A DNA stretch of 64,000 bases from Siniperca chuatsi (Eukaryota; Chordata; Actinopteri; Centrarchiformes; Sinipercidae): the NCBI RefSeq assembly GCF_020085105.1, contig NC_058053.1:15586888-15650887 (forward strand), in the 5' to 3' direction. Numbering within the stretch: the first letter of the stretch is position 1; each line of letters begins with the position of its first letter. This document shows positions 10,390 through 12,674 of the stretch, piece after piece. The position numbers and the translations under genes were made by a program. The notes under the pieces are model-generated. The model saw only the letters and a list, made by a program, of their open reading frames with translations, did no database searches and was not told where the DNA came from.

Positions 10390-12674
10390 TTAGGGTTTGG
10401 TCTTCAGGGTCTTGATGTGTCCTCTGCGTCTCACTCTGACACTGAGCCACGCCTGGGAGTTTGCTCCTGAGCTGTTGAATCTGAAGGACTCTGTAAAGGA
10501 CACACACACACACACACACACATACACAGGCAGAGCATGGTGCAGCATTTATGACACAGCAACGTTTATCTATTCAGCCACATCTTCTACAAAAGATATC
10601 TTATACAGAAACTTTTGAGTATATGCACCAGAATCAAACAGTACTCAGTAACTCTGCTCTACCACCATTCATATCCAACAACACAGCAGCGGCACAAGGG
10701 ACTAGCATGTCCCCAGCTCTGATTCAACATTTAACTGAAACTCAAACACATATATTCATGAAAGGCCACAAAGACTGGCGTCGAGAGAGATGCCAGTCCT
10801 GCTGTGGTTTGATGAGGTGTATAGTGTGTAGTGTTGAAGACTTTTTCCCTCAGCCAAAAATCTTTATCAGTAATCGGCTACCGCTCAGACAAAAGCAAAG
10901 ACCTGAGGTAAATCCATGTCTACCCCAGAGGTGGAGGAAGTACTCAGTGCTTACAGGTGAGTGAAGCTGGTTCTCTCACTTTTGCTTCACATTTTCTGCA
11001 GTTTGTTACAAAAGTGAGAACAGAGTGGAATTTGTAATGTGGGAGCAGAAAATACATAATTTAAAACGTTGTCATGGCTGAAAGTAATTACTGACTTGAG
11101 TACTTTGTGCTAAAATATACATATGTAATTAAAAACATTTGTAGGGACATATTTCACAGGGCTGATTCTATCACAACATGCATTCACATAATGACTTTTA
11201 CATGTGGAAATCTGGAGTTTGATTTTATATTTCTTGATATGCAGAATGTGTATTGTTTTACTCCAAATTTACAATTCAGCAATTGTAGCAAAGTTAAACA
11301 TGTTAATTTTATTATTTGTTATGTAAAGGATGGGATTTAAGAAGCTGCAGTTAAGGATGTGAGAACTCTCAGTCATCCAGGTAGTAGGATATATATGTAC
11401 TAAGTTAAAGACAATGAGACTTGCTGTCTCTAAAATAAAACAGTCCATCCAGTTGCCTTTGACTTCTGGATATTGAGAATGGAGATATCATGACCAAAAC
11501 TTACTTAAACAAAACTTTAATAAAATTAGAAAACATTAATAGTTGATTTTGTTGTTGTCTAGTGTTAGACCCTGTATTAAAAGACTCAATCAATGTCGGA
11601 GTAACAGCAGGTTCCAGTGTAATGTTTTGAATTTCGGTAGTGAAGTTGCCATTTTTTTAATTTAACATTTGAATCACAAATTGTGCCATAAATGTCATGG
11701 TACAGCGTACCATTCCTAGTGTTTGTCTATTTGTCTCCTATTGGTTCTCCCTCAGTGTGTGTGTGTGTGTGTGTGTGGCTGGCGGGGCGCGGCCTCCCTA
11801 GGAAACCTCCAATCAAGAACTGACACACCTGCTACACTCCTGCTGTTACTCACCTGATCTCCATCCACTAATCAACATCTGCCAGTATATATACCCGGCT
11901 CTTCTCTCCAGTCTTTGCCAGATTGCCAGTTTACCTTCGTGGTATTGAAGCGTGGCCTCTACCTGTACTTAACGAAAGATTATCTTGCTTGTATGTTTTT
12001 TGAAACCCTGACTAATCCCCTGATTCCTGTGTACAGGCTCATCTCACCGACCAACCAGCACTGGCTCCGCTAGTCACTCGCCAGCCTGCTTAAGCCACCA
12101 GCTCTTGCCGTTTCCCTCCACGCACCAAGTGTCTCTTTGTGGTTCTGATAATAAGCTGAAGCTATGCTTTGAATAGGGTCTACATGTAAATAATAATAAT
12201 AATAATAATGATAAACAAAATTAGACAGCAGTGATGTGAGTAGTGATATATGATGAGTACCCTCCTCTGACAGGTGTGTGTGTGTGTGTGTATGGTCAGA
12301 CACTTACTGTCAGTAATGAGGGAGTGTACAGCGGTGCTGTGTCTCCGCCCCAGGCCGTGACTCCTGGACAGCACGCAATCCAGATAGATGTCCCAGAAGA
12401 CCCGGGTCAGGTCCCAGAACAGCGCCGTATGTTTGCTGTTGTCTGACGACCTGAGGGACACCATCAGGTCCCAGAAGCCGGGCACCGTGTCAGCGATCCT
12501 CGGGGAGCGCATCTCCAGCAGCAGAGCCGAGGACGAGTCCCAGCACTGCGGGTTCGCCGGGTGGGCCGTCAGGGGGTCCTCGTGACCCGGCTTCTGGCCC
12601 TGCGGCTGCACAGCACACATGCAGCTCAGCACAAACACTGTGGCCACAGGTATGTTCAGGAGCACTGGGACCAT
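10390..12674 (-). CDS. fam237a: FAM237A-type neuropeptide precursor
   Basis: Two coding exons, 12674-12308 and 10490-10390, join in phase to give 155 residues (the human protein is about 181). Residues 1 to about 27 form a signal peptide ([20 protein letters not shown]). The conserved core follows: [53 protein letters not shown], then SHGLGRR. The GRR should be a convertase site with Gly as amide donor, so the mature peptide should end in Leu-amide with one Cys-Cys bridge. After a variable stretch the tail [13 protein letters not shown] resembles the human C-terminus. FAM237A has been reported as a ligand of GPR83. The first coding exon begins exactly at the ATG after an acceptor, so a 5' UTR exon lies upstream (about 13120-13160). 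Confidence 0.9.
10501..10527 (-). repeat. GT repeat abutting the fam237a acceptor
   Basis: On the fam237a transcript this is a (GU)n run that ends 10 nt before the acceptor AG. Only tcctttacag separates it from the exon. It replaces most of the usual polypyrimidine tract and faces an AC repeat near the donor of the same intron. Confidence 0.85.
11754..11778. repeat. TG/AC microsatellite in the fam237a intron
   Basis: A clean dinucleotide run reads as (AC)n on the fam237a transcript. It lies mid-intron and is a possible competitor for pairing with the GU run at the acceptor. Confidence 0.85.
12274..12291 (-). repeat. AC repeat next to the fam237a donor
   Basis: On the transcript this is (AC)9, starting about 16 nt downstream of the donor GTAAGT (12307-12302). 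It is complementary to the GU run at 10501-10527. Confidence 0.85.

Follow-up and report, generated by a model that had tools for sequence, protein, structure and literature searches.

Lin et al. reportedly described, in 2016, a class of zebrafish introns that carry AC and GT dimers at opposite ends and are bridged, and this class is said to be present in ~10% of zebrafish genes. A second system is intron 8 of CFTR, whose acceptor has the form (TG)m(T)n and in which a UG run beside a short T tract controls exon 9. That zebrafish introns bearing a dinucleotide repeat at either end are spliced independently of U2AF2 is cited in the available portions of PMC9198270 and PMC9508853, and the zebrafish paper also appears among the references of PMC7404189, PMC5766209 and PMC10809524, as far as their accessible text goes; one of the citing papers, in the part at hand, describes the class as short introns. 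Excerpts of PMC12276007 deal with pUG mis-splicing in CFTR, and work on TDP-43 at the CFTR UG run is listed in the references of PMC12697283 and PMC12276007. The same two papers, in extract, describe UG runs of 12 or more repeats near splice sites of human introns, while the available part of PMC13174678 gives association data on human intronic short tandem repeats and splicing, in which AC goes with HNRNPL and GT with TARDBP. No paper on repeats in the fam237a intron was among the entries listed by literature searches, which were aimed at this kind of splicing, at proteins that bind such repeats and at the gene itself rather than at that point alone.

We analysed a 64,000-nt stretch of the Siniperca chuatsi genome (the window), in which an intron of fam237a has repeats of both kinds, one near each end. 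The features concerned are the following, given in the coordinates of the window.

12308..12674, minus strand: fam237a exon 1, coding part, 367 nt, ATG at 12674, ending in phase 1; signal-peptide-like start, mature peptide and GLG-RR processing site
10491..12307, minus strand: fam237a intron, 1,817 nt, phase 1, ACA/GTAAGT ... CCTTTACAG/AG
10390..10490, minus strand: coding part of fam237a exon 2, ending with the stop at 10390
12274..12291, minus strand: 5' arm, perfect AC run of 18 nt, intron positions 17-34, starting 16 nt past the donor
10500..10522, minus strand: 3' arm, 23 nt of uninterrupted GU at intron positions 1786-1808, or 29 nt (10528-10500) with an interruption
11755..11777, minus strand: inner AC run, 23 nt, intron positions 531-553, a possible competitor of the 5' arm
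10491..10499, minus strand: short pyrimidine stretch and acceptor, CCTTTACAG, the acceptor being 54th of 66 by score when counted from the weakest

The earlier note had called the gene and the intron at 10491..12307, and this call holds, the two exons joining to a single frame of 155 codons without a stop. Its observation of the repeats is confirmed, with small coordinate corrections. The AC run that it saw about 16 nt after the donor is there as a perfect tract (12291-12274). It had placed the end of the GU run 10 nt before the acceptor; the run exists, and 9 nt separate it from the end of the intron. The GU run was also said to lie where a pyrimidine tract should be; CCTTT still separates the GU run from AG, and what the intron has is a shortened tract, not a lost one. 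The second AC run is present as well, spanning 11777-11755 and not 11778-11754.

Like the zebrafish introns, the fam237a intron carries an AC repeat near its 5' splice site and a GT repeat near its 3' splice site, and an end-to-end duplex is predicted for it. Unlike them, it is 1.8 kb long, has ordinary splice sites and contains a second AC run. An AC excess is moreover absent at the one donor motif tried in its own genome, and the intron is placed with the class by its anatomy, as a candidate member. With CFTR intron 8 it shares a 3' splice site in which a few pyrimidines come after a UG run; it differs in also having a donor AC run and in that the downstream exon is the last coding one. The human repeats in the available part of PMC13174678 have the same units near splice sites, although protein binding, and not an end-to-end bridge, is invoked for them there.

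The gene is called fam237a because of its neighbours, namely an ADAM gene (with Pfam matches and, in PDB, a match to ADAM22), ndufs1 and a zf-C3Hc3H gene read as ino80d; a rhodopsin-type receptor also lies nearby, the domains being those of Pfam. We take this ADAM, ndufs1 and zf-C3Hc3H neighbourhood to be the FAM237A-ADAM23 locus. By eye, the translated product has a hydrophobic start, two Cys ahead of GLG-RR, a Gly amidation signal and an Arg-Arg site, and so shows the layout of the fam237a (NPGM) peptide: signal peptide, two-Cys mature peptide, Gly amidation signal and Arg-Arg. The predicted mature part ends in ...SRSHGLGRR. Chicken NPGM has a comparable glycine amidation signal and dibasic site (PMC5768754, available part). 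The product had no Pfam match at E 0.01 and nothing better than E 0.17 in PDB; the exon 1 protein had no relative in viral and prokaryote contigs, and Rfam at gathering thresholds returned nothing over 10300-13300. Compared with the rest of the window, the intron gave matches over 31 nt and 20 nt only.

We then asked how the repeats are predicted to pair. In the intron folded alone, the 5' AC run pairs with the GU run at a probability of 0.99 and the inner AC run at 0.002 or less; 60-nt exon flanks leave this at 0.993 and 0.002 or less, and at 28 °C the values are 0.96 and 0.034. The proposal that the end runs are complementary and able to form a duplex is upheld by this pairing of 0.99, and the in silico folding suggested as a check gives an end-to-end duplex that is kept with exon flanks and at 28 °C. 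All of these are equilibrium predictions that consider neither proteins nor the order of transcription. Within the model the bridge is thermodynamically available in the fam237a intron: the ensemble loses 22.6 kcal/mol when the GU run is blocked, and the end-to-end duplex, computed from the 60 nt after +6 and the 60 nt before -3, is the strongest among the 43 introns of at least 130 nt (-53.2 against a median of -14.6 kcal/mol). Arms taken from different introns pair equally well, the best cross pair reaching -53.7 kcal/mol. In the predicted bridged fold the donor GTAAG is mostly open (0.62-0.70), but the final intron G and the three exon bases that follow it are predicted to be paired (unpaired 0.01-0.02).

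The winner between the two AC arms is not strongly encoded according to these predictions, the duplex choice being nearly degenerate, as follows from isolated duplexes, blocking, span limits and shuffling. As isolated duplexes with the GU run, the inner AC run is stronger than the 5' run (-41.6 versus -32.7 kcal/mol). Blocking the 5' arm costs 9.7 kcal/mol and shifts the GU run to the inner AC run (0.916), which likewise obtains it at 0.92 when the pairing span is capped at 1,300 nt; at 600 nt neither AC run does. With shuffled interiors, 12 of the 16 finished runs favour the 5' arm and 4 the inner one. The earlier suggestion that the inner run could compete is therefore borne out structurally: it forms the stronger duplex by itself and takes the GU run (0.92) once the 5' run is blocked. 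Tuning of the neuropeptide by this competition is speculative, because exon 1 already encodes the whole of the predicted mature peptide, including the Gly-Arg-Arg at its end.

Splice-site strength was compared over 66 introns annotated by hand in five genes of the window (25 in adam23, 12 in a caspase gene, 2 in fam237a, 18 in ndufs1 and 9 in ino80d), using a leave-one-out score from a simple matrix of 65 sites, which is not a standard program. The first adam23 intron was excluded because its exon boundary is unsure. In the caspase gene, ndufs1 and ino80d, joining the exons from the first intron to the last gives a single open frame, which for ino80d intron 9 was also followed into the last exon. 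The 5' sides of fam237a intron 1, ino80d 1, ndufs1 1, caspase 1 and adam23 1, and the outer ends of ndufs1 18, caspase 12 and adam23 25, were placed by splice signals and eye only. On this scale the fam237a donor ranks 35th from the weakest of 66 and its acceptor 54th; the pyrimidine content of the acceptor is 0.59 over 22 nt, the third-lowest value, tied with at least 7 other introns. Two further introns serve as controls.

61896..62007, plus strand: ino80d intron 9, 112 nt, with (GT)13 at 61980-62005 straight before AG and no AC arm
25603..26870, minus strand: adam23 intron 13, with AC39 (26849-26811) 21 nt past the donor TGG/GTAATG, an ordinary pyrimidine tract and no GU arm

Of the three introns with a run no more than 40 nt from a splice site, two have a single arm, a GU acceptor in ino80d and an AC donor in adam23, so each arm exists without its partner. 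In the ino80d intron, whose acceptor is poorer in pyrimidines than any other of the 66, the GT run is not accompanied by another pyrimidine tract, and donor and acceptor are 5th and 6th from the weakest. If its junction is right, this intron would have to splice without a bridge; the junction is supported by the reading frame and agrees with the human INO80D sequence. In adam23 intron 13 the donor is the 3rd weakest of 66 and the acceptor ordinary (41st).

Eight perfect AC/GT runs of at least 12 nt occur in the window, all inside annotated introns; imperfect tracts (for example 16600-16634, outside annotated introns) are left out of these counts. Read in transcript sense, six are AC and two GU, and both GU runs stand at acceptors. 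Four of the eight are no farther than 40 nt from a splice site, each of them as AC at a donor or GU at an acceptor and none in the opposite arrangement. Under random placement, four or more runs near splice sites have P=1.5e-4 over the whole window and 2.7e-3 inside introns, and an intron with both arms has P=3.1e-4 and 1.4e-3, respectively; these values are post hoc, because the fam237a intron was picked for this very feature. If the arms of that intron are set aside, two of the other six runs are still near splice sites (P=0.024 over the whole window, 0.089 inside introns). With two AC-donor introns and two GU-acceptor introns in a set of 66, an overlap of one intron or more has P=0.06. When the minimum length is lowered to 8 nt, 6 of 27 runs are in the right arrangement and 1 in the wrong one; at 10 nt the figures are 4 and 0 of 13. 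Repeats at splice sites are commoner than under random placement, with the post hoc choice of the intron applying to this statement too. Over 284 kb of contiguous sequence with 24 runs, the sole AC-to-GT neighbours within 5 kb are those of the fam237a intron; by order within 5 kb, AC then GT occurs once and GT then AC twice, numbers too few to compare.

The same question was put to the whole genome of the fish (719 Mb) by a pattern search, whose matched places are motifs, none of them a verified splice site. On the donor side, (AC)8 within 30 nt after the motif CAGGTAAGT gave 19 matches at 9 distinct loci (29 matches for the reversed-pattern control), and (GT)8 gave 56 matches at 17 loci (control 55); 10 of these 17 GT loci start within 2 nt of the motif and 1 more continues through an interrupted tract. 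AC and GT after CAGGTAAGT do not differ significantly genome-wide in any of three counts (P 0.17-0.61), and there is no genome-wide AC excess after this motif, with 9 loci against a chance estimate of ~11 for AC or GT alike, which was scaled from 279 kb and is rough because it is based on 5 occurrences of the 9-mer. This donor test consists of the single 9-mer CAGGTAAGT, which is absent from all 66 annotated donors, and AC runs that follow different donor sequences could have escaped it.

On the acceptor side, GU at most 15 nt before the motif TTTGCAGG gave 47 loci on the plus strand and, on the minus strand, 304 matches (control 21), and AC gave 12 loci and 47 matches in the same order (control 13); the reversed control is likely low, because the reversed motif contains CpG. 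The plus-strand counts are the ones compared (47 versus 12, P=5e-6), because on the minus strand one locus is counted again for every repeat length, and an array on contig C2 contributes as well. The rule of one row per locus on the plus strand was checked in full for donor AC, donor GT and acceptor AC, and for acceptor GU on 7 plus-strand rows among the matches listed. Several GU matches among the matches listed abut TTTGCAGG directly, so seeding of repeats by the letters of the motif may add to the GU bias. The contig C2 matches (27062083-27105018) comprise at least 16 copies within 43 kb, on one strand, of a unit with (GT)n shortly before the acceptor-like TTTTGCAGG, and form a local array of repeated units.

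A signal-score scan was also run on 220 kb adjoining the window, which contain 16 runs and 5 kb of N; it has little power, because it lacks gene models. At the loose cut-off it found no GU preference at acceptor-like cores in these 220 kb (GT 3, AC 5), and on the donor side AC once and GT three times; at the strict one the donor counts were AC 0 and GT 1, and those before acceptors GT 1 and AC 4. Within the window, the loose cut-off gave 2 AC and 2 GT after donors and 3 GT and 3 AC before acceptors, and the strict one gave 1 and 1, and 2 and 2.

How the intron is spliced can be read in several ways. In a true bridge of the zebrafish kind, a duplex of at least 18 bp would join the splice sites over 1.8 kb and lower or remove the need for U2AF2, with the inner AC run as an alternative partner. 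Such a bridge would agree with the predicted 5' AC to GU pairing (0.99, 0.993 with flanks, 0.96 at 28 °C) and the 22.6 kcal/mol cost of blocking the GU run, with the isolation of the AC-to-GT pair in 284 kb, and with a zebrafish class of the same anatomy (cited in the available text of PMC9198270 and PMC9508853). We nevertheless consider it rather unlikely: the splice sites are normal (donor 35/66, acceptor 54/66), the ino80d GU and adam23 AC introns of the same window have one arm each, an AC excess is absent after CAGGTAAGT, the one donor motif tried, and the choice of partner is near-degenerate, the inner duplex being stronger alone, favoured in 4 of 16 shuffles and at 0.92 under the 1,300-nt span. 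The predicted pairing of the intron's last G and the first three exon bases in the bridged fold also speaks against it, as does the length of 1,817 nt where a citing paper, in the part at hand, has short introns. Of the bridged-intron reading in the earlier note, the anatomy, the complementarity and the predicted duplex survive, and normal splice scores and one-arm introns speak against a need for the bridge. That the two rival AC arms make this a switchable bridged intron of 1.8 kb, the GU arm going either into an end-to-end fold that permits splicing or into one that is folded back, is conceivable from the fold predictions and would be the most doubtful of these proposals.

The repeats might instead be read by proteins, an hnRNP L-like one on AC and TDP-43 or CELF on GU, each arm being regulated separately as in CFTR intron 8. 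The order of GU run, short pyrimidine stretch and AG resembles the CFTR layout. The HNRNPL-AC and TARDBP-GT associations in human data (PMC13174678, in part) and the human UG runs of 12 or more repeats near splice sites (excerpts of PMC12697283 and PMC12276007) point the same way; yet this appears quite improbable, since the fam237a GU run has 11.5 perfect repeats, just below the 12 quoted for the pUG fold in the accessible part of PMC12276007, and since the CFTR effect is the skipping of an internal exon, whereas the exon downstream here is the last coding one. Finally, the runs may be neutral microsatellites with no function, tolerated where they stand: a GU run, being half U, brings no new AG to an acceptor, and an AC run brings no new GT to a donor. 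The weakening of the placement P to 0.024-0.089 without the fam237a arms and the lack of polarity in the scanned 220 kb beside the window are consistent with this, and the genome-wide acceptor polarity of 47 versus 12 stands against it, though tolerance by itself could produce such a bias; we regard neutrality as possible, if on the unlikely side. On the AC arm it overlaps with the explanation that we favour.

That explanation, held with slightly better than even confidence, is an ordinary intron that combines a GU-bearing acceptor with a coincident AC microsatellite. The assessments given for the several readings overlap with neutral tolerance and are not exclusive. The intron would be of the ordinary U2 type with adequate splice sites, and its acceptor would be one of many sites in the genome with a GU microsatellite just before an acceptor-like motif, as the strand bias at one motif suggests. 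The GU run with CCTTT probably substitutes for part of the pyrimidine tract, or binds TDP-43 or CELF, and the AC run past the donor would be a separate microsatellite. The predicted pairing of the runs may slightly help or hinder splicing and is presumably unneeded for splice-site choice. The ordinary-intron reading is favoured by the mid-rank donor, the above-median acceptor, the one-arm introns and the 47 versus 12 GU bias. Against it, a single intron of 1.8 kb with an arm 16 nt from one end and another 9 nt from the other is unusual, albeit post hoc; the end-to-end duplex is the strongest of 43 introns, the donor motif test is narrow, and the scan of 220 kb had no GU preference.

Should the bridge work after all, U2AF2-independent splicing would extend to a long intron in another fish, and the fam237a intron would be a compact test case with a built-in competitor arm. 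A wider lead is that GU runs before the acceptor motif look over-represented in the genome of this fish without a matching AC bias at the donor, and therefore the arms may act singly. This bears on the origin of the zebrafish class, in which the acceptor GU may have come first and the bridge second. The ino80d intron with (GT)13 would be a good test case for the need for U2AF2 without a bridge.

Two observations lie beside these questions. In chicken, NPGL has Gly-Leu and NPGM Gly-Met before the amidation signal (PMC5768754, available part), and the mature peptide encoded at 12674-12308 of the window has Gly-Leu, as in NPGL; this NPGL-like end stands in contrast to the neighbourhood, which suggests fam237a. 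In adam23, the frame is open up to two transmembrane exons, at 21277-21187 and 20368-20278, and has 2 stops once both are joined; each of the two reads into the last exon by eye, and they look mutually exclusive, because joining both yields stops.
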